A stretch of 64,000 bases of DNA. It comes from Planctomycetota bacterium. GTDB taxonomy: Bacteria; Planctomycetota; Planctomycetia; Pirellulales; Lacipirellulaceae. How positions within the stretch are numbered: position 1 is the stretch's first letter; every line of letters starts with the position of its first letter. Location of the stretch: contig JAADGV010000053.1 of assembly GCA_013152205.1 (NCBI GenBank), positions 1 to 64,000 on the forward strand, in the 5' to 3' direction. The position numbers were made by a program, and so were the translations under genes. Shown piece after piece: positions 52,957-63,655 of the stretch. The notes under the pieces are model-generated. The model was given only the letters and a program-made list of their open reading frames with translations, did not search any database and was not told the DNA's origin.

Positions 52957-53237
52957 GCGGATGCACCCGGCATATTGGGCTTACCCTTGGCCGGAATGGC
53001 GAAAATCGGCGAAATTCACGTATGCTGAGTTCCACGCATGTTGCAGAGTATGGGCACCAAAGGCTACCCTATGTAGTCTGCTTGGCCTGATCATTGATGC
53101 TGTTGCGCAGTTTTGAAAGTTGCTTTCGACTATTTCGGAGTGCATGGTCTGGAATGCCGACCACCCCGGTTGAGCCGTAAGTAAATTGTAATCGATATTC
53201 GTTGCCCCTTATTTTTCCTCACCCGTTTTTCTCATCT

Positions 53238-55346
53238 ATGCCAAGTACACTGATCGATATTGGCGTAGGTTGGAGTACGTTGGCCGACATGCTGGAGCAT
53301 CGGGCCAACCAACATCCTGAGCGCTTGGCTTTTGTTTACGAGGAAGAGTCGGGGCACGTCAACGAATTTAGCTATGCGAAGCTTGACTCGCGTGCTCGGG
53401 CGATCGCTGCTTGGTTGGCCGAACGCACGGAGCCCGGCGATCGGGTTCTTTTGGTCTATCCGCCAGGGTTGGAATTCATCGCAGCCTTTTTTGGTTGTGT
53501 TTATGCAGGGGTGTTGCCAGTGCCGGCGACTTACCCCAAGCCGCGCCGTCCGATGCCCCGTCTGAACTCGATTGTGGCCGATTGCCACCCTCGACTTGTG
53601 CTGACCCATAGTTCGTCGCTCGACGGTCTTGCTTTAGAGGGACAATCGCCTGCTATCCGCGATTTAGTTTGGGAACCTACCGACCATCTGGCTTCTTCGA
53701 TAGGGTCAGGATTTCAACCGGTGTCGCGCAAGTCTGAGGATATTGCTTTCTTGCAGTACACGTCGGGCTCGACCTCCGACCCGCGGGGCGTGATGGTCTC
53801 GCATGAGAATCTATTACATAACATGCAAGCCATTTACGGAGGCTTTGCTGTTGGAGAGCATGGAGGGCCCAAGGATATACCAACCGGTGTGTTCTGGTTG
53901 CCGGCCTATCACGACATGGGGCTGATTGGCGGTATCCTTACACCGATTTTTGCGGGGGGAACAAGTTATTTATTAGCCCCGACAACGTTTTTGCGGCGAC
54001 CCTTGCGGTGGTTAGAGTTGGTGTCTCGGGTGGAAGCAGACGTCAGCGGTGCTCCGAATTTTGGTTACAAATTGGTTGTTGAAAAAACCACTCCGGCTGA
54101 ACGTGCTGAGTTGAACTTGAAAAGTTGGCGACTTGCGTTCTGTGGCGCAGAGCCGATTCATCCTGAAACGCTGAACGATTTTTCGGCTGCTTTTGCGGAA
54201 GCGGGCTTCAACTCCTCTGCGTTTTATCCTTGCTATGGCTTGGCTGAGGCCACCCTGTTGGCCACCGGTGGCAAGGGGCCGTCGGGGCCGCGTATTTTGC
54301 ATGTCGATCGGCAAGAGCTTGGTAGCCATCGTGGAGTCCGTCTTGAAAGCACTCACCCTCGGGCACAGGCTTTGGTGGGTTGCGGTGCAGCACTCAACGA
54401 CAATTTGGTGAAAATTGTCGATCCAAAGACGGGCGTTGAACGCGAGGAAGGCGCCGTAGGCGAAATTTGGATTTGTGGAGGGTCTGTTGCGCTTGGCTAT
54501 TGGAACCAAGACGAGCTGAATCAAGAAGTTTTTCAGGCGTCGCTTCCTGACAATGGTTCGCTAAACTATTTGCGGACGGGCGATCTTGGGTTCTATCTTG
54601 ATGGCGAGTTGTATGTGACGGGGCGTCTGAAAGATGTGATCATCATTCGAGGCCGAAATCACTATCCGCATGATATCGAACGCACGGCCCAACACGCCCA
54701 TGAAGCCGTCGATATGGGTGCCGCGTTTTCGGTCGAGGGAGAGCGTGAAGAGCAGCTTGTTGTTGTACATCAGTTGCGACGAGAGCATCGTAAGGCGGAC
54801 AAAAACGAAGTCTTACGTGAAATCCGCAAACGAATTGTCGACGAACATGAACTCGACCCTCATGCCATTTTACTGATTCGCCCCGTGAGTTTGCCGATCA
54901 CCTCTAGTGGAAAAGTGCAACGGAATGCGTGTCGCGAGCAGTACCTAACCGGCCAACTGCCTGTCGTTGGTGAATGGACCAATCGTTCAACCAACGAAGA
55001 GGGGAACAGCGAACGAGCAGATGTTCTTGCGGCATCCACGGGATTTTTAGAGAACGTGGGACAGGAAGTATCTGCCGAATTGACCGGGGAGATACAAGGG
55101 TGGCTTATCGCCTGGCTTACCGAACGGGCGAATCTCAACCCGGGGACGATGACCCCGACTACTCCTTTTGCCGAGCTTGGTATCGACTCGCTCACGGCGG
55201 TCGAAATTAGCCAAGAGCTGGACCAAATACTCGGCTTGCAGTTGCCGCCGATGGTGATCTGGAGCCACCCTGATCCTGAGGCGTTGGCCAGCTATCTAGC
55301 CGAACAGCTTGTCGCGAGCCGTTCGGGCGCGGCAGTTAGCGATTAA
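53238..55346 (+). CDS. Fatty acyl-AMP ligase fused to an acyl carrier protein domain
   Basis: A 702-residue ANL-superfamily enzyme. Core motifs are AFLQYTSGSTSDPRGVMVSHENLLHNM (P-loop, about 170-196), WLPAYHDMGLIGGILTP, FCGAEPI, YGLAEATLLATGG and RTGDLGFYLDGELYVTGRLKDVIIIRGRNHYPHDIE. The PAYHDMGLIG and RGRNHYPHDIE sequences are the hallmarks of fatty acyl-AMP ligases rather than acyl-CoA synthetases. The C-terminus is a carrier domain with phosphopantetheine Ser651 in LGIDSLTAVE. It should activate a fatty acid as acyl-AMP and load it on its own carrier domain. No polyketide or peptide synthase is adjacent. ATG 53238 is preferred; the frame is open to 53202. Confidence 0.92.
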   Translation: MPSTLIDIGVGWSTLADMLEHRANQHPERLAFVYEEESGHVNEFSYAKLDSRARAIAAWLAERTEPGDRVLLVYPPGLEFIAAFFGCVYAGVLPVPATYPKPRRPMPRLNSIVADCHPRLVLTHSSSLDGLALEGQSPAIRDLVWEPTDHLASSIGSGFQPVSRKSEDIAFLQYTSGSTSDPRGVMVSHENLLHNMQAIYGGFAVGEHGGPKDIPTGVFWLPAYHDMGLIGGILTPIFAGGTSYLLAPTTFLRRPLRWLELVSRVEADVSGAPNFGYKLVVEKTTPAERAELNLKSWRLAFCGAEPIHPETLNDFSAAFAEAGFNSSAFYPCYGLAEATLLATGGKGPSGPRILHVDRQELGSHRGVRLESTHPRAQALVGCGAALNDNLVKIVDPKTGVEREEGAVGEIWICGGSVALGYWNQDELNQEVFQASLPDNGSLNYLRTGDLGFYLDGELYVTGRLKDVIIIRGRNHYPHDIERTAQHAHEAVDMGAAFSVEGEREEQLVVVHQLRREHRKADKNEVLREIRKRIVDEHELDPHAILLIRPVSLPITSSGKVQRNACREQYLTGQLPVVGEWTNRSTNEEGNSERADVLAASTGFLENVGQEVSAELTGEIQGWLIAWLTERANLNPGTMTPTTPFAELGIDSLTAVEISQELDQILGLQLPPMVIWSHPDPEALASYLAEQLVASRSGAAVSD

Positions 55347-55456: not shown

Positions 55457-55480
55457 CCGGCCAGGATGGCCCGGCTATGG
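55457..55480 (+). repeat. CCGGCCAGGATGGCCCGGCTATGG palindromic repeat
   Basis: Family of 23591-23613. The TAG stop of the TolC-family gene (55475-55477) lies inside it. Confidence 0.68.
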
Positions 55481-57691
55481 GTGGGGTGGCGAATCGTTGG
55501 TCGGTGGTAGCGGTAGGATTGGTTCGCTCTCGTATTTGATTCGTTGGATTTTTTCTGTTGCCATGCTTGGTTGCGATTCTGGGCGGTCTTCTAATTGACT
55601 TGTAACCGTTGTGGGGGGCGTTGCGTCGTCGGGCGACGAGGTTTTTTCTAAGTGTTGTTTGTAGACACCGCGGCTAACTCGCGGCGTGTTGGCTGAGGAA
55701 TAATTCATCGGCTTGGGACGGCCACGCAAACTTTCGAGTCGGGCGGCATCTTGATAGGCCATCCGTGGCCAGCCGCCTTCGCTGAGGAAGACGCCATCGT
55801 AATCGAGTAGCGTGCCTTTGGCGTAATGGACATTCTTCAAAGCGATGGCATACTCGGCCACAATTCGGTAATAGCGACTTTGAGCATCTGCCAACCGGCG
55901 TTGCGAATCGAGTAACAAGTCGAGTGAAATTTTGTCGGATTCGAAGGCTGCCTCGACGGCTTCTAATTGCTGTCGGGCGGCTTCGAGTCGATTCATGGCT
56001 GTCTGAGAAACTAGGTACGCCCGCTGCATTTCGGCCACGGCTGAGGCGACGTTGTGCAACACGTAATGTTCCTGTTCGCGTAAGATGGCACGCGATCGGC
56101 TGAGTTGGAGTTCCGCATTGCGAGCGGCCGAGAAAGCGCGGCGATAGCCGATCGGTACGCTTAATTCTAAGCCCAACTGCCATTCCTGGAAATCGCCACC
56201 GGTCAGGTCTTCCCAAGCGTTGTCGAATCGGGGGTTGTTGCCACTCGGGTTGAGCAGCCGCTCGCCGAAGCCTCGCCAACGGTAGCGGCCAATGGCATCC
56301 AGACGCGGCAGCAAATGATTTTTGCTGGCGATCCATTCCAACTCGCGACGGCGAGTTTCAAACCGTTGTCGGCGAAGTTCGGCACGTCGTAGCACCGCTT
56401 CATGAGTTGTCTGCGCCCAATCGAACTGGACGGGTGCGGTAATGGGTTCATCTGCCGGACGAAGCAAGCGGCCATCGCTTGGCGGCAATCCCATCAGCAA
56501 TCGCAAACGACGCTCAGCCACATGGACTCCGCCATTGGCTCGAAAGGTGCCGCCCCCGCTGCCGTTGCCGGTTCGAGTGCCGTCTACCATTCGGCCACTG
56601 AGAGCGTTTTGCACTTCTTCTTGAAAGCGGAAGAATTGCTCGCGTGCTTGTGCTTCCTTCTCGGCTTCGCCACCACGGCGACCTGATTCGTAGAGTGCGT
56701 GTACCCGTCGCCAAGTATCTAGCGTCGCGTCTCGTGCGGCAATCCTGGCGTCTAGGTCGCGGTAGGCAAAGTAGAGATCCCAGTAGGCATTTTCGATATT
56801 GCTGACCAGATCGCGAACGCCCATTTCGAAGTCGGCTAGTTCGACATCCATGTTGACCCGCGCGATCAGCACGCCGCCGTAAATGCCCGGCGTTGTACTC
56901 GGGCCGGCAATGCGATTGAACAACATGCCGCTGCCTTGCAACAGTGGGTGTCTGAATTCCGATTCTAGATTGACATTCCACGCGCCTGGAAAACGGTTGC
57001 CGGGAGCGTTGTTCGCATCGTACTCGGCATTGTGTCGGAAAGTGAATTCGGTGCCCGTCACGGCCCGTTTCGTTAGTTGCGATTGCAGCGAGAGTACGTC
57101 TTGTTGTAGGAGTCGTGTACCGCCGCCGAAAAACTCGTTGTTCAGCGCCTTGTCGTTTTTCTCGCCAAAAACGCTTGTCGAGAATTGAGCGTCGAATGCA
57201 CTGAGCGCAGCATCGACACCAAAGCGAGGGTCGGTTTCTTGTAGGGCCGGATCCCAATAGGTTTCGGCAGTGGCAGGCGATCGCAGAATCGCCCCCCCTA
57301 AGTCTCGCAAGACTTTCGATTGGGAGAGCGAGAGTTGAATGACTTCTTCGAGTTTGACGTCCCAGTATTCGGTCTCGCTCAAGGTGGCCAAGGTCACAGG
57401 TTCGAGGCTGGCCCAATCTTCGCTCGACGCACTGCATTGGCTGACCTGGGGATATTCGATTTGGGTTGCCAACGCCCGATAGCTGTCGTCGGTGTTGTTA
57501 TTGCTCGCTTTGAATTCGCCCGTGCCGTGCGTACGACAGCCGCATACGATCGCCATGGCCAGACAGACCGGCAGCGCGAAAAGCGGTTGTGTAGGCAATA
57601 GATGGCGTATGCAGGGCAAAATAGGCACTCGATCGATGCAAATTTTGGGCGTCTTGGCGAAACTCGACAGCCTCGGAGTCGTTTTCGACAT
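55475..57691 (-). CDS. TolC-family outer-membrane efflux lipoprotein
   Basis: A 738-residue protein. Its N-terminus has a hydrophobic signal ending VCGC, with Cys52 as the likely lipidation site. The body is of the outer-membrane efflux protein type: long heptad-rich helices with two duplicated halves (VSNIENAYWDLYFAYRDLDARIAARDATL; YVLHNVASAVAEMQRAYLVSQTAMNRLEAARQQLEAVEAAFES), and the conserved beta/turn regions LQGSGMLFNRIAG and VPIGYRRAFSAARNAEL. It is longer than E. coli TolC because of N- and C-terminal extensions; the Pro-rich last ~80 residues are probably flexible. It is divergent from the adaptor/protease genes at 58044-63655 and is their obvious partner. Confidence 0.9.
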   Translation of the reverse strand: MSKTTPRLSSFAKTPKICIDRVPILPCIRHLLPTQPLFALPVCLAMAIVCGCRTHGTGEFKASNNNTDDSYRALATQIEYPQVSQCSASSEDWASLEPVTLATLSETEYWDVKLEEVIQLSLSQSKVLRDLGGAILRSPATAETYWDPALQETDPRFGVDAALSAFDAQFSTSVFGEKNDKALNNEFFGGGTRLLQQDVLSLQSQLTKRAVTGTEFTFRHNAEYDANNAPGNRFPGAWNVNLESEFRHPLLQGSGMLFNRIAGPSTTPGIYGGVLIARVNMDVELADFEMGVRDLVSNIENAYWDLYFAYRDLDARIAARDATLDTWRRVHALYESGRRGGEAEKEAQAREQFFRFQEEVQNALSGRMVDGTRTGNGSGGGTFRANGGVHVAERRLRLLMGLPPSDGRLLRPADEPITAPVQFDWAQTTHEAVLRRAELRRQRFETRRRELEWIASKNHLLPRLDAIGRYRWRGFGERLLNPSGNNPRFDNAWEDLTGGDFQEWQLGLELSVPIGYRRAFSAARNAELQLSRSRAILREQEHYVLHNVASAVAEMQRAYLVSQTAMNRLEAARQQLEAVEAAFESDKISLDLLLDSQRRLADAQSRYYRIVAEYAIALKNVHYAKGTLLDYDGVFLSEGGWPRMAYQDAARLESLRGRPKPMNYSSANTPRVSRGVYKQHLEKTSSPDDATPPTTVTSQLEDRPESQPSMATEKIQRIKYESEPILPLPPTNDSPPHP

Positions 57692-58043
57692 CTGAGAACC
57701 GGTAATACCATGATTTCCGCTAGAAGCGGCAAACCTTACGCAGTTTAACTAGCTGACACGATTAGACCGGAAATGCCGAGAGTTTTTTGCAATGAGCAAG
57801 TGCTATCAATGAGGAATCTGAAGGGTTGGATATACTGAAATAGTGCGAGGTCATGTCCATGCTGGTAGTGCCACTGGAGGATGACCGAGAGAACGTGGCA
57901 TTTCAATTTGTGGAACCCCTTTGGGGTTCTTTGCTTCTCAACAAACGATGCCCCAGGGTGGCGCGACTTCGCCGCTTACCCTGGGCTACGATGTAAAACC
58001 CCTTTGGGGTATTATCCTTGCGGCAAGAATGACCAAATCCCTA
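57692..58043 (+). repeat. Divergent intergenic region with three-hairpin element copy D (57900-58027)
   Basis: Copy D has stems at 57913-57929 (lengthened to GAACCCC/GGGGTTC), 57952-57985 and 57998-58010. It lies immediately before the GAF-HlyD start, so it will be in the leader of that transcript. The rest of the gap shows no gene. Confidence 0.75.
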
Positions 58044-60104
58044 ATGACCAATGAAAACGACTCTGTTGATGGCGGCTGGCGACAGCTCGAGGAGTTTGTT
58101 GACCGGTTGCATGAGCTTGCGCATACGCCCATAGAAACTGATGCGTTCTATCGTCGTTTGTTGGATGGGTGTGTCGCTGCGCTGGCAGCAACGGGTGGTG
58201 CCGTTTGGTTGCCGAATGTTCGGGGACGTTGGGAGTTGCTTCATCAGACGAACTTGCCGCATGCGCTAAGCCCGGAAAATCCAACCACTGAAGCGGCTCA
58301 CTATTCGCTGCTTCAGAAGGTGGCTGCATCTGACGAGGCCTTGATCTATCCGCCTCGTAGCGGCACCGTCGACGCGAGAGAAAACCCAACCGATTCAGTA
58401 CTCGTGGTGTCTGCCGTGCGAAGCGATGCCAGCCCTTCGAATGAAAAACCGGTCGCTATTATTGAGCTTTTCATGCGGCCCGGGACGAGTCCGGCTGTGC
58501 AGCAAGGTTGGCAAGATATGGTGTCAACCGTTTGCCATCTCGCGGCGAACTATCACACACTCGACGAGCTTCGTACTCTTCGGGGCGAGCGGGGTTTGCA
58601 TCGCCAGTCGTTGGCCCTGTTGCGACGGATCAATCAGCCGACGGATCTTCGCCGGACGGTGTTCGAGATTGCTAACGAAGGTCGTAGTTTTGTCGAAGGC
58701 GATCGTCTTAGCCTTGTGTTGCGGCATGGCCAGTCGTGGCGAGTGGCGGCTGTGAGTGGTGTCGATCGGATTGAGGCACGAGGTGATACTGCTAGAAAGC
58801 TAGAACAACTGGCCGACCGAACCGCGAGTTGGGGCGAGCCGATTGATTCTGAGGATGGCGAATCCGTGGGCGAGAAAAAGTCTCTTGAGGACGATCTTCC
58901 GCCGGAACTGATACACGTCATTGAACAACAGAGGGACGTTTCGCACGCTCGTCGGGTGGTGGCGGTGCCGATCGAATTTGCTAGGGACGTGGATTCGCAG
59001 CAATCGTCGGTTGGCCCCTCGAGTCAACCGGCTGCTGTTTTGATTGCTGAACAATTTAGCGTCTCGACATCTGGATTTTCGCGTCAGCGGGTTGTTGAGT
59101 TGGCCCAATTGTGTGAGCCGGCTTTGCGTCAGGCAATTCGGCTCGATCGTTTTCCGGCCCGCCTTTTCCTGCGGTGGACGGATCGTTGGACCCGGGCACG
59201 ACAAGCTTGGGGGGTGAGCCGGCTGGCAGTAGCCGCGATGGCTGTTGTAGCGATCGTCGCGGCGTTGGTCTTTGTGAAGCGCGACTTCGAAATCGAAGCC
59301 CCTGCTACCCTGGTGCCAGTCGTCGAGCGCGACGTATTTGCCACGGCCAATGGAACGATCGTTGATGTGCAAGTTGTTCATGGCGAAAAAGTGGAAGCTG
59401 GCGCGGTATTGGCCGTGATCGACGACCCGACGCTCTCGTTGGATTCGCAGCGGGTGCTTGGAGAGGTTGAAACTATGCGCAAGCGGTTGGAGGCAATCGC
59501 GGTGGCAAGGACCGATCGAAATGTCCAAGCGGATACTGATCGCGAACGCTTACCCCTGTCAGCCGAAGCTCAGCAGCTTGAAAAGAAGTTGGCTAGCTTG
59601 GAAAAGCAACGCGAGATATTGGCCGCTCGTCGCACGGCACTCACGCTACGTAGTCCGATCGCCGGGACGGTGCTGACGCTTGATGTTCAAAACCTTTTGC
59701 GGACCCGCCCGGTTGAACGGGGCCAAGTCCTTTTCAAAGTGGCCGATGTCGAGGCGGGCTGGTGGCTATGGGCCGAGGTCGAACAAGATCGGATCGGGCA
59801 TGTGGTTGCTGCCCAACAGGCAAGCGAGGGCAGTTTGCCCACCCGATTTCGTTTTGCAGGAGAAGATGCCGAGATTTTCTCGGGGCATGTCGAATCGATT
59901 AGTGCCACGGCGGTGCTTGATCCAAATGAATTGAATGAAGCTGCTCCTGCGTTGCGAGTGCGGGTGGCAGTCGACGAGCAATCATTGCCCGCTGCTCGGC
60001 CTGGGATGACGGCGAAAGTTCGTATTCAATGTGGTCGGCGTTCGCTTGGGTATGTTTGGCTGCACGATGCTTGGGAGACAGTTTACTCGTGGTTGGTGTT
60101 TTGA
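58044..60104 (+). CDS. GAF-domain/HlyD-family membrane fusion protein
   Basis: A 686-residue protein with a rare domain order. The N-terminal ~390 residues are cytoplasmic: two GAF-like domains (about 20-175 and 185-365), separated by a short helix. A membrane segment (393-411) follows, then a HlyD-like periplasmic part: lipoyl half VFATANGTIVDVQVVHGEKVEAGAVLAVI, a short coiled coil (about 475-545), second lipoyl half TLRSPIAGTVLTLDV and a beta-barrel that ends GMTAKVRIQCG. So a cytoplasmic sensor is joined to an export adaptor. The start is uncertain: ATG 58044 used, ATG 58029 possible; the frame is open through the repeat to 57921. Confidence 0.85.
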   Translation: MTNENDSVDGGWRQLEEFVDRLHELAHTPIETDAFYRRLLDGCVAALAATGGAVWLPNVRGRWELLHQTNLPHALSPENPTTEAAHYSLLQKVAASDEALIYPPRSGTVDARENPTDSVLVVSAVRSDASPSNEKPVAIIELFMRPGTSPAVQQGWQDMVSTVCHLAANYHTLDELRTLRGERGLHRQSLALLRRINQPTDLRRTVFEIANEGRSFVEGDRLSLVLRHGQSWRVAAVSGVDRIEARGDTARKLEQLADRTASWGEPIDSEDGESVGEKKSLEDDLPPELIHVIEQQRDVSHARRVVAVPIEFARDVDSQQSSVGPSSQPAAVLIAEQFSVSTSGFSRQRVVELAQLCEPALRQAIRLDRFPARLFLRWTDRWTRARQAWGVSRLAVAAMAVVAIVAALVFVKRDFEIEAPATLVPVVERDVFATANGTIVDVQVVHGEKVEAGAVLAVIDDPTLSLDSQRVLGEVETMRKRLEAIAVARTDRNVQADTDRERLPLSAEAQQLEKKLASLEKQREILAARRTALTLRSPIAGTVLTLDVQNLLRTRPVERGQVLFKVADVEAGWWLWAEVEQDRIGHVVAAQQASEGSLPTRFRFAGEDAEIFSGHVESISATAVLDPNELNEAAPALRVRVAVDEQSLPAARPGMTAKVRIQCGRRSLGYVWLHDAWETVYSWLVF

Positions 60105-60486
60105 TGATGATGAGAGAAACCACAGATGAACATAGCGCGGCCGTTGCCGCAAACAAAAAGGGGAACCGCTAATCAGCGTTAATACACGCTAATCGATGAA
60201 AGAAAATAAGAAAAAGGGAAGGATTGTCTCGCAGAGACGCTGAGACAGCAGAGAAAACCAGAATGTTGTAGCTCTGCCGTCTCAGCGAGATTCAATTTCC
60301 TTACGAAGCCGCGTATGAGACTTATAATTTTTGCGTCTTAGCGCCTTTGCGAGAGTCCTATTTAACGGCCTAAGCAGCCAAGATTTTGCAAGCTACGCAA
60401 ACTTGAACTGTTAGTAATACGGATGATATGCGATCTAATCCATTTAACGATGTTTAGCCACTAAAATTTCTGACGAATCTCTAAAA
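60105..60486. repeat. Intergenic region with two repeat units
   Basis: 60133-60195 is the third copy of GCGGCC..CCGC plus GCTAATCAGCGTTAATACAC. 60220-60356 shares GATTGTCTCGCAGAGACGC, AGACAGCAGAG, GTAGCTCTGC and CTTAGCGCCTTTGCGAGAG with 51470-51600. No gene between the two adaptor genes. Confidence 0.65.
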
Positions 60487-61446
60487 ATGAAACTACTAGT
60501 ATTTAATTCGACTGGCCTTTTTTTTCGAGGGGATGCTTTCTCTGTTGGTAGGGGCGTGGCCGCCACCGCTAACGGGTGTTGCTTGGGGTGCTTGCTGATG
60601 TTGCAATGCTTACTAGGGGCAGCTTGGGTGCGTGCTGATGAGCAAGCGGTGATCTTGGTTGATTCGGTTGTTCTGCGACCGCTTCGAGCGGCGGAAGTGC
60701 CTTCGCGGCAGACGGGCTTGCTAGACTCGATTGAGGTTGATGAAGGACAGGTTGTTGAGGCGGGGCAAATTTTAGCTTCGCTAGATGCTCGCGAGGCTAG
60801 GCTTGAGTTGGCCAAAGTAAAGTTGCAGTCGGCTCAAGCGGAATCGAAAGCCAAGAATCTTGTTCGCATCCAATATGCTCAGAAAGCACTGGAAGTTGCC
60901 AAAGCCGAGTTGCAACGCTCGAACGAATCGATAGAGAAATTCCCGAAGAGTATTTCTCAGTCGCAGGTGGATGTCGAACGGCTGACCATTGAAAAGCTCG
61001 AATTAGAGCTGCAACAGGCTGAACATGAGCTGGAGCTTGCGCGTTTTGATCTTGAACTCGCAAAAAACGAGATCGAGGCGGCTGAGCTGCGACTTTCGCA
61101 ACATCAGCTGCGTGCTCCGTTTAAGGGAACCGTGGTGCTGGTGCGCGGTCGTGTGGGCGAGTGGGTCGAGATCGGAGCGCCGGTACTTCGGTTGGTCGCC
61201 ACCGACCGTTTACGGGCGGAGGGGTTCTTGCCCGCCGAATCGGCGACCGGTGATTTGGTGGGACGGTCTGTACGATTTTTGGTGGGATCGGATGAGAACG
61301 CGCGGCAAGTTTTGGGAGTGGTACGTTTTATCAGCCCCGAGATGGATCCCGTCACGCGGCAAGTACGAGTTTGGGCAGAGTTGCCTGGGACCGATGGAAA
61401 ACTACGCCCTGGCCAACAGGGTTCGATGGAAATTTTGGCAAAGTAG
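60487..61446 (+). CDS. RND/HlyD-type periplasmic adaptor protein
   Basis: A 319-residue (at most) membrane-fusion protein. Lipoyl half VPSRQTGLLDSIEVDEGQVVEAGQILASLD is followed by a long coiled-coil hairpin (about 95-210, ELAKVKLQSAQAESKAK ... LELARFDLELAKNEIEAAELRLSQ), the second half LRAPFKGTVVLVRGRVGEWVEIGAPVLRLV and a beta barrel ending LRPGQQGSMEI. It would bridge an inner-membrane component to the TolC-family protein. The start is doubtful: ATG 60487 gives a signal-like region whose hydrophobic part is encoded by a copy of the GTGGCCGCCACCGCTAACG repeat; ATG 60598 would leave a very short signal. Confidence 0.85.
   Translation: MKLLVFNSTGLFFRGDAFSVGRGVAATANGCCLGCLLMLQCLLGAAWVRADEQAVILVDSVVLRPLRAAEVPSRQTGLLDSIEVDEGQVVEAGQILASLDAREARLELAKVKLQSAQAESKAKNLVRIQYAQKALEVAKAELQRSNESIEKFPKSISQSQVDVERLTIEKLELELQQAEHELELARFDLELAKNEIEAAELRLSQHQLRAPFKGTVVLVRGRVGEWVEIGAPVLRLVATDRLRAEGFLPAESATGDLVGRSVRFLVGSDENARQVLGVVRFISPEMDPVTRQVRVWAELPGTDGKLRPGQQGSMEILAK
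60530..60590 (+). repeat. GTGGCCGCCACCGCTAACG repeat inside a coding region
   Basis: Same family as 45061-45137. The matching copy at 46289-46375 encodes the same peptide string GVAATANGCC in the corresponding frame, showing that this part of the adaptor's N-terminus is repeat-derived. Confidence 0.7.
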
Positions 61447-61474
61447 CTGACCGTCAGATGTGTGATACAAACGA

Positions 61475-63655
61475 ATGACAACCACTTCGGCATATAATCT
61501 GGCTGCGATCGATCGCCCGATTGGGCTGTGCGCGCGGAAGGATATTGGGAAGACCGCGGTAACCTTCACGAGTCAGACGGCGTACGTTCTCAAAGATCCG
61601 CTCACGCTTGAGTTTATTCATCTTACTGCTGAGGAGTATTTTTTATTCAGTTTGCTGGAAAATCCGATTTCGCTGAGTAAGTTGCGGCGAGAATTCGAGC
61701 GAAAGTTTGCTCCGCGGCAAATCAGCCACGAAGCGTTGCAGCACGGTATCAATCAGCTGTATAGCGAAGGTTTGCTGTTGAGCGAAACGACCGGCCAGGG
61801 GCACGAACTTTTTAAGCGAGGGGAGCGTCGCAAGCGAAACGAGCGATTGCAAAGTCTGCTGCAACTGTTGTCGTTTCGCTTGGGGAGCATTGATGCGACC
61901 CGATTTATCGAAGGCGTCTATGGCAAGGTGCGTTGGTTATTCACTACCCCCATGCTTGCCATTGCAGCGGCCATTGTTTTCTACGCAGGTTGGATTTTAT
62001 TGACGCGAGGAGGCGAGGTTGCTGCCCGACTGCCGAGCGTTAATGAACTCGCCCGGCCAGAAAACTGGTTGCTTTGGCTGGTGACCTTTGTTGTGGTCAA
62101 GATTGTTCACGAACTGGCGCATGCGACGACTTGTCGGCATTTTGGGGGGCGGTGCCACGAGATGGGCGTCTTGCTGCTTGCTTGTGTTCCTTGTCTCTAC
62201 TGCGATGTTACTGATGTTTGGCGATTGCCGAGCAAATGGCGACGGATTGCGGTTTCGGCAGCGGGGATGATTGCCGAGTTGGTGATTGCTGCTGTTGCGT
62301 TGATTGCTTGGTGGCATACACAGCCTGGGCTGCTCAACACTTGGTGTTTGAGCTTAGTGGTTGTCTGTTCGGTTGGCACTTTGTTGGTCAACGGCAATCC
62401 TTTGTTGCGGTACGATGGCTATTACATTCTTTCCGACTTGGTCGAGGTGCCCAATCTGGCAGGGCGTGCTCAGGGGCTGTTGCCTGGTATGCTGCGGAGA
62501 TGGCTGCTGGGTGAGCCGCGAGTCGACGACCCGCTACTGGACAGGGCACAACAGCGAGGATTGCTTGTCTATGCTGTGGCCGCCCGTATTTATTTGACGG
62601 TTGTCTTGCTGAGCATCTTTGTTGCTTTGCTGGCTTGGACTCGGCCGTATCGTTTAGAAAACCTTGTTTACACGGTTGGGGTTATTACGTTGCTAGGAAT
62701 TCTCATTCGGCCCTTGACCACGATTTGGCGCATGTCGAACAATCCGGCTTTGCGGTCGCGAATACGTAGGTGGCGTGCGGCGACCTTACTGGCGGGAATT
62801 GCTGCGACCGTTGCCTTGGTGCTGTTTTTGCCAATCACGCACTCGGTGTCTGGGCCGACTGTTCTGGTTCCGGTCGAAGGGAAAACGGTCTACGCGACCA
62901 TTGCTGGCGAGCTTCGCTATGCGGTAGCTGCTGGTACTCGGGTCGAGCAGGGAGAGGTGTTGGCTCGGCTGGCTGACCCGGACGTAGAGATTGCTCTGGC
63001 ACAGCAGCAGGGCGAGTACGACGTTTTTCGCGTACGTTACGATCAGATGAATGCGATGCGGGCCTTGGACGAGCGTGTGTTGCAACGGCTGCCCACGGCT
63101 CGGGCGGCGTTGGCCGACGCTCGATTGCAAATGGAGGAGTCTCGCCAGCAAGCTGAGGAGCTGGTGGTTCGTGCTCCTGTTGCGGGAACCGTCGTCGGCC
63201 CGCCGCGAATGGACGACGCGGCCAAGGACGAGGGGCGTTTGCCGAGTTGGTCTGGCTCTCCTCTGGAACCGCGTAACCTGGGGTGCTGGGTTGAGCCGGG
63301 GACCGTTCTTTGCACGGTAGCCGATCCCGGTCGCTTGGAAGCGTTGCTGGCCATCGATCAAGCGGATGTTTCGAAGGTCGAAGCTGGCCAAAAGGTTCGG
63401 CTTCGATTCGACTCTGCCCCTGCGCGGGTTTTCGAAGGAACGGTATTGCAGGTAGCCCGTCGTGCTGCCAACCGGCCCGTTGATGCCGCTCAGACTGAGC
63501 CGGGTAGATATCACTTGGTGCAAATTCGATTGGATAGCCAGGAGCCGGGCCTATTGGTCGGGGCTCGTGGCACGGCGAAGATCGAAGCCAGCCGAACGAC
63601 ACTGGGGGCGAAAGCCTCAACTTATCTTCGGCGTATGCTGCAGCTGCCTTGGTAA
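61475..63655 (+). CDS. PqqD-like / M50 metalloprotease / HlyD-like fusion protein
   Basis: A 726-residue membrane protein with three parts. Residues about 30-105 (YVLKDPLTLEFIHLTAEEYFLFSLLENPISLSKLRREFE) resemble a PqqD-type peptide-binding domain. From 150 the membrane core contains the site-2 protease motif HELAH (212-216) and the second metal ligand Asp314 in NPLLRYDGYY, both in hydrophobic context, as in M50 and YydH-like peptide metalloproteases. After about 455 there is a lipoyl/HlyD-like module (VYATIAGELRYAVAAGTRVEQGEVLARL, VVRAPVAGTVVGPPR) with a coiled coil between the halves. It may cleave a peptide in the membrane and couple it to the export adaptors. It starts 28 bp after the adaptor stop, so both are likely cotranscribed. 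Confidence 0.88.
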   Translation: MTTTSAYNLAAIDRPIGLCARKDIGKTAVTFTSQTAYVLKDPLTLEFIHLTAEEYFLFSLLENPISLSKLRREFERKFAPRQISHEALQHGINQLYSEGLLLSETTGQGHELFKRGERRKRNERLQSLLQLLSFRLGSIDATRFIEGVYGKVRWLFTTPMLAIAAAIVFYAGWILLTRGGEVAARLPSVNELARPENWLLWLVTFVVVKIVHELAHATTCRHFGGRCHEMGVLLLACVPCLYCDVTDVWRLPSKWRRIAVSAAGMIAELVIAAVALIAWWHTQPGLLNTWCLSLVVVCSVGTLLVNGNPLLRYDGYYILSDLVEVPNLAGRAQGLLPGMLRRWLLGEPRVDDPLLDRAQQRGLLVYAVAARIYLTVVLLSIFVALLAWTRPYRLENLVYTVGVITLLGILIRPLTTIWRMSNNPALRSRIRRWRAATLLAGIAATVALVLFLPITHSVSGPTVLVPVEGKTVYATIAGELRYAVAAGTRVEQGEVLARLADPDVEIALAQQQGEYDVFRVRYDQMNAMRALDERVLQRLPTARAALADARLQMEESRQQAEELVVRAPVAGTVVGPPRMDDAAKDEGRLPSWSGSPLEPRNLGCWVEPGTVLCTVADPGRLEALLAIDQADVSKVEAGQKVRLRFDSAPARVFEGTVLQVARRAANRPVDAAQTEPGRYHLVQIRLDSQEPGLLVGARGTAKIEASRTTLGAKASTYLRRMLQLPW

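Follow-up and report, generated by a model that had tools for sequence, protein, structure and literature searches.

The four-gene cassette at positions 55475..63655 of the window, by which we mean the whole 64,000-nucleotide stretch of planctomycete DNA that was analyzed, is proposed to be an ABC-free, TolC-dependent exporter of large surface proteins carrying an N-terminal leader, a reading to which we assign a probability of about 0.7. The cassette is real, conserved and partly known, while the export system built upon it is proposed from sequence.

All four genes of the original prediction are present in the window sequence. The first (55475..57691, reverse strand), divergent from the other three, encodes a TolC/OEP outer-membrane channel (PF02321, 1.8e-21). 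Because its hydrophobic stretch terminates in ...AIVCGC, and a Gly-Cys lies behind a hydrophobic stretch in all 14 relatives compared that have a divergent TolC gene, this protein is likely a lipoprotein. The gene at 53202-55346, convergent with the TolC gene, encodes a fusion of a fatty acyl-AMP ligase with a carrier domain. The second gene (57921..60104, forward strand) encodes a tandem-GAF/TM/HlyD protein (HlyD_3, 2.6e-11); the longest frame begins at a TTG (57921), and the ATG at 58029 is the likelier start. Pfam matched the HlyD part and not the GAF domains of this protein; PF01590 was found at E 0.01 or better in 31 of 38 aligned members. The structure predicted with AF2 (pLDDT 84.7) comprises a pair of mixed alpha/beta domains, a helix long enough to span the membrane and the HlyD part, and Foldseek matched it to the GAF structure of PDE5A (3lfv; rank 48, E 7.7e-11). 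A sensing role of the GAF domains would be a guess. The third gene (60487..61446, forward strand) encodes a periplasmic adaptor of the RND-MFP type with an N-terminal hydrophobic segment (TIGR01730, 1.1e-34, above cut-off), and the fourth (61475..63655, forward strand) a fusion of an RRE (PqqD-like) domain, an M50 intramembrane metalloprotease and an HlyD part (PF02163, 5.4e-08, above cut-off; HlyD_3, 3e-12). Both an HlyD-type adaptor and a TolC-type channel are present at the locus, as seen from profiles and from the HlyD folds recovered by Foldseek. The envelope-spanning export set that had been predicted is upheld as two adaptors, an outer-membrane channel, an intramembrane protease and a probable leader-recognition domain. 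The accompanying claim that no ABC or RND motor is present holds for the four genes, among which profile searches found neither, and which include no MFS pump either, but a SecA-type ATPase belongs to the loci of many relatives.

The AF2 model of the M50 fusion (pLDDT 83.5) has strands and then three helices in its N-terminal segment; HELAH and YDGYY lie in a multi-helix part that comes next, ahead of the HlyD part. Seven residues (H212, E213, H216, N306, P309, D314 and Y316) are invariant in alignments of 31 and of 40 proteins. H212, E213 and H216 belong to the HELAH active-site motif (62108..62122, forward strand), and D314 and Y316 to the YDGYY motif (62411..62425, forward strand), where D314 is the probable third zinc ligand, by analogy with site-2 proteases. 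Four cysteines lie near the active site (C220, C227, C240 and C243; 62132-62203). Of these, C240 and C243 are invariant and C220 and C227 occur in 90% or more of 40 planctomycete members, and at these columns cysteines are not conserved in 12 proteobacterial members; a second metal site or disulfides are possible.

The RRE/PqqD-like domain occupies residues about 18-103 (61526..61783, forward strand). Pfam gave no match for this segment in the window protein alone; of the 20 members from which a profile was made, 13 matched PF05402 with E values up to 1, the lowest being 1.5e-7. That profile, which covers the N-terminal segment, found TfuB1 (6jx3, E 0.0018) and PqqD (3g2b, E 0.0021) as top structures, with a FurB third (0.062) and TbiB1 fourth (0.24); TfuB1 and TbiB1 are RiPP leader-binding proteins. 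These comparisons through relatives support the PqqD-like identity that had been predicted for the segment. Only periplasmic adaptors were among the 50 Foldseek matches listed for the fusion, so the M50 and RRE folds are not confirmed by that route; structures of MacA, MexA and AcrA are similar to the HlyD parts of both this fusion and the GAF protein.

Conservation of the neighbourhood was assessed in planctomycete loci from a scan of named genomes, using the best 80 of 535 confirmed loci. The GAF-HlyD and adaptor genes both precede the M50 gene in 52 of the 57 assessable loci among these 80 (those with at least 3.6 kb upstream), and the neighbourhood is conserved. Of the five misses, L071, L077 and L085 show neither gene, and L066 and L094 have an overlapping adaptor frame and were counted as lacking an adaptor because the distance rule drops overlapping frames. 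The TolC gene could be assessed in 51 of the best 80 of 535 loci (at least 5.8 kb upstream): a divergent copy is found in 14 of 14 with the window-like adaptor type, in 0 of 32 with the other adaptor type and in none of the 5 that lack an assigned adaptor. In the same best 80, measured on longest frames, 54 of 62 relatives' loci have a GAF-to-adaptor gap below 100 bp, and 54 of 72 an adaptor-to-M50 gap this short. The corresponding GAF-to-adaptor gap in the window measures 382 bp and contains no more than three frames, of 21, 38 and 27 aa. The window genome contains two cassettes, one per adaptor type, the second being on contig C21. No TolC match was found for this second cassette in the 20 kb examined and no SecA2 adjoins it; the canonical SecA lies about 10 kb off.

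The proposed cargo was recognized from genes that accompany the cassette on plasmids, where 19 loci out of 71 records were examined. A long leader-bearing gene occurs in the cassette neighbourhood of 14 of the 15 determinable loci, four (L021, L112, L113 and L114) having been left out where the gene start is beyond the sequence taken or the cassette is at the record end. The leader consists of a basic stretch and LExRxLL or LExRxhF. In two of the 14 loci the gene is some distance away (about 4 kb in L171, 10 kb in L018), and in Phyllobacterium L016 the upstream gene has no leader and an annotated ABC/HlyD type I pair is close by. The cassette-adjoining genes are annotated as LEPR-XLL, DUF4347, Ig-like or LamG and reach 12,918 codons, the longest being the linked gene in L017 with about 13,000 residues. 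The type of leader follows the class of cassette, all 6 leaders of the first class being LL(S/N)AD and all 8 of the second (F/Y)D(A/G), but these classes are also lineages and the match is therefore co-inheritance and not independent proof. The small protein DUF3467 is linked to the cassette in five of the 19 plasmid loci (L107, L108, L109, L110 and L113), and a function as chaperone would fit; one copy is present in the window genome (G000:C89:63680-63952).

Across the phylum, leader and cassette co-occur. In a draw of 119 genomes, which are related to each other and vary in completeness, M50-HlyD was detected in 28, the search scoring at most about 9 candidates per genome. The curated LEPR-XLL model NF012209, which like PF07595 is independent of our leader models, was matched in 13 of the 119 genomes, comprising 13 of the 28 M50-positive and none of the 91 M50-negative ones (Fisher 4.8e-10). 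The match in G087 is internal and probably due to chance; when dropped, 12 of 12 matched genomes are M50-positive (3.2e-9). At family level (67 families, taken from the highest label) the model was found in 9/18 versus 0/49 families (1.1e-6). It was absent from 15 of the 28 M50-positive genomes and over cut-off also in one of 14 control genomes (Deinobacterium). Of 27 matches inspected, own genome excluded, 26 start 7-117 residues past the first possible start, and the frames bearing inspected matches are up to 9725 aa long. Together with the positions of the plasmid genes, this makes the link between M50 cassette and leader strong, both statistically and positionally. PF07595 was tried as an independent profile test and is too weak below its cut-off to decide: at E 0.05 it gave no separation (8/28 M50-positive versus 12/91 negative genomes, p 0.08), and over cut-off it was found in two genomes only, both M50-positive. 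Weaker leader models also make the division less sharp. Two models were built from the leaders found here, and their matches on those genes are thus circular; the class-1 model A6 at E 0.05 was matched in 16 M50-positive and 7 M50-negative genomes, and the RRVL model A8 in 9 and 7 at E 0.02 and in 4 and 0 at E 0.001, one of the four in a 78-aa frame.

Of 19 loci with the window-type cassette, 9 have a same-strand leader-bearing ORF of LExRRVL-like type downstream, and the pattern behind the first seven of these ORFs was fixed before they were seen. The strict pattern occurs within the first 110 aa of 9 of 799 ORFs versus 0.23 expected, an expectation based on a single internal match among 350,834 residues. 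No such downstream ORF was found in 10 of the 19 loci, including six with 9-10 kb of downstream sequence (L024, L025, L034, L044, L049 and L079), and L024 and L025 are among the nearest relatives. In the frames of the window no leader was found. A model of the RRVL leader, made from the seven ORFs, matched a single protein of the window genome strongly (E 7e-6), followed by 0.067 for the next match. An 866-aa PKD-repeat protein with the leader RLERRRVLDA (PF18911, 3.4e-11) is encoded on the window's contig (G000:C95:99437-102037, reverse strand), about 36 kb beyond the window M50 gene, and is 43% identical over 884 columns to an ORF 3 kb from the L023 cassette. This protein is probably the dedicated cargo of the window cassette. 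At its C-terminus, a moderately hydrophobic stretch is combined with a basic tail, possibly a sorting tail; the ORFs L023:15179 and L070:13502 likewise have basic tails at the C-terminus. NF012209 has three matches over cut-off in the window genome, and model A6 has six, having been built partly from these six. The six class-1-leader proteins are of subtilase, SdrD-B, beta-helix and RTX types and may use the second cassette.

A secondary SecA (SecA2) was considered as motor. The window genome encodes two SecA_DEAD proteins of 1248 aa and 647 aa, the latter on another contig. In the phylum draw, 13 of 43 loci (10 genomes) carry a secondary SecA no more than 5 kb from the M50 gene. This count omits partial M50 matches and matches to HlyD parts only, and uses 24 hand-picked SecA matches (frame below 760 aa or beside the M50 gene; G071 and G058 omitted). 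In G071, a genome 83% complete, a short SecA and a weak leader match were found and no M50. Among the 19 plasmid loci scanned, SecA2 is present in 8 of 9 of one cassette class and in 0 of 10 of the other, and is consequently not a universal motor. It is likely to drive some cassettes and is a candidate motor for that of the window.

From the conservation, linkage, co-occurrence and domain make-up observed, we infer leader binding, cleavage and a motor as follows. The leader, a basic stretch followed by LExRxLL or LExRRVL and then usually by small residues, would be bound in the cytoplasm by the RRE of the M50 fusion, in the manner of RRE domains on RiPP leaders. Cleavage by the M50 site would take place at or within the membrane, close to the LL/SA or VL/DA junction. 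Energy may be supplied by the secondary SecA ATPase, in the window genome from another contig, or by another motor. The conduit would form when the separate adaptor and the HlyD parts of both membrane proteins dock on the TolC lipoprotein, and the GAF domains might gate or regulate it.

It is also conceivable, if unlikely, that the cargo crosses the inner membrane by ordinary Sec, and that the cassette does no more than remove the leader and take the protein across the outer membrane. The SecA-type partner at many loci fits such a two-step route, and canonical Sec could serve the cassette class that has no linked SecA2. The leaders compared, however, have no Sec-like hydrophobic core: hydrophobicity maxima in 11 typed leader regions (three trimmed at the start) were 0.45-1.47 versus 2.15-2.70 in a hand-chosen set of six Sec-type sequences, of which the window supplied five and L024 one. 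The RRE at the N-terminus of the fusion, which is probably in the cytoplasm, also speaks against that route.

The original prediction raised a small peptide as possible cargo, and a RiPP-like pathway, in which M50 matures a PqqD-bound precursor that leaves through the adaptors and TolC, is suggested by the RRE-like domain and by an M50 part closest to the daptide protease model NF041824 (2.1e-43) and to YydH/LiaK NF058609 (5e-10). The M50 core is common to all three, but the window protein falls far below both curated cut-offs (148.9 of 300 and 39.4 of 225 bits), is fused to HlyD and is proposed to handle large cargo. Moreover, the cassette genes abut in most relatives, and the gene that travels with the cassette is long and leader-bearing. 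A small peptide as cargo is not supported, and we regard this pathway as quite improbable. Slightly less probable still is a drug or small-molecule efflux set regulated by M50 and GAF, for although the HlyD parts are like those of MacA, MexA and AcrA, a pump is lacking among the four genes as described above, and the cassette is linked to and co-occurs with leader-bearing proteins. The export of large leader-bearing proteins is the reading that we prefer.

Type I secretion of giant adhesins such as LapA and SiiE employs an HlyD-TolC conduit for repetitive giant cargo, with an ABC motor and a C-terminal signal. Conduit and, as proposed here, cargo are common to the window cassette, which differs in its N-terminal leader, the lack of an ABC gene at the locus and the fusion of a protease to an adaptor. 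The original prediction held that the combined system had not been described. This does not stand, since Kamneva, Poudel and Ward (2015; PMC4452313) presented a conserved secondary SecA_DEAD/type-I-like locus of GAF-HlyD, M50-HlyD, HlyD adaptor and sometimes OEP genes, without an ABC transporter and with cargo unknown there, in Planctomycetes, Proteobacteria and others. The clustered GAF-HlyD, M50-HlyD and HlyD genes and the missing ABC are shared with the window; SecA2 is in or near that locus, whereas the window genome has it on a different contig, and cargo and leader are proposed here. The words 'cargo', 'giant' and 'export signal' and the name Studholme are absent from the main text of that paper. 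As to the leader, PMC8567305 describes an R. baltica consensus, RRLxxExLExRxLLA, as a likely novel N-terminal export signal and cites Studholme 2004 for PF07595 on R. baltica cell-surface proteins. PF07595 and NF012209 describe the same N-terminal motif as in the proposed cargo, and in the passages cited neither is tied to an export machine. In the open-access literature searched, we recognized no paper joining leader and machine and found no exporter named for the 2004 signal. The locus type has hence been known since 2015, and what is new is the probable cargo and the leader link.

This link joins two loose ends, the planctomycete N-terminal surface signal of 2004 and the SecA2/M50/HlyD locus of 2015, and makes them testable together. 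If true, it provides an ABC-free route open to proteins as large as that linked in L017, with about 13,000 residues. More tentatively, with the odds slightly against it, the cassette may represent a general Gram-negative secretion system of Planctomycetota and Proteobacteria, in which a fusion of RRE, site-2 protease and TolC-docking parts reads leaders whose address types are matched to cassette types. LExRRVL would address the window type, LEPRxhFDA the SecA2-free type, and LExRxLL-SA the SecA2-linked cassettes and perhaps also the second planctomycete type. A cell that has two cassettes, as the window genome does, could then use them to sort different cargo. On E. coli plasmids, the SecA2-free cassette adjoins a 4459-codon Ig-like gene (L020:7262-13557, NZ_CP081687.1). 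Matches to this cassette were found in 24 of 5426 complete E. coli genomes, 22 of them over at least 80%, and 21 of the 25 places are on plasmids.
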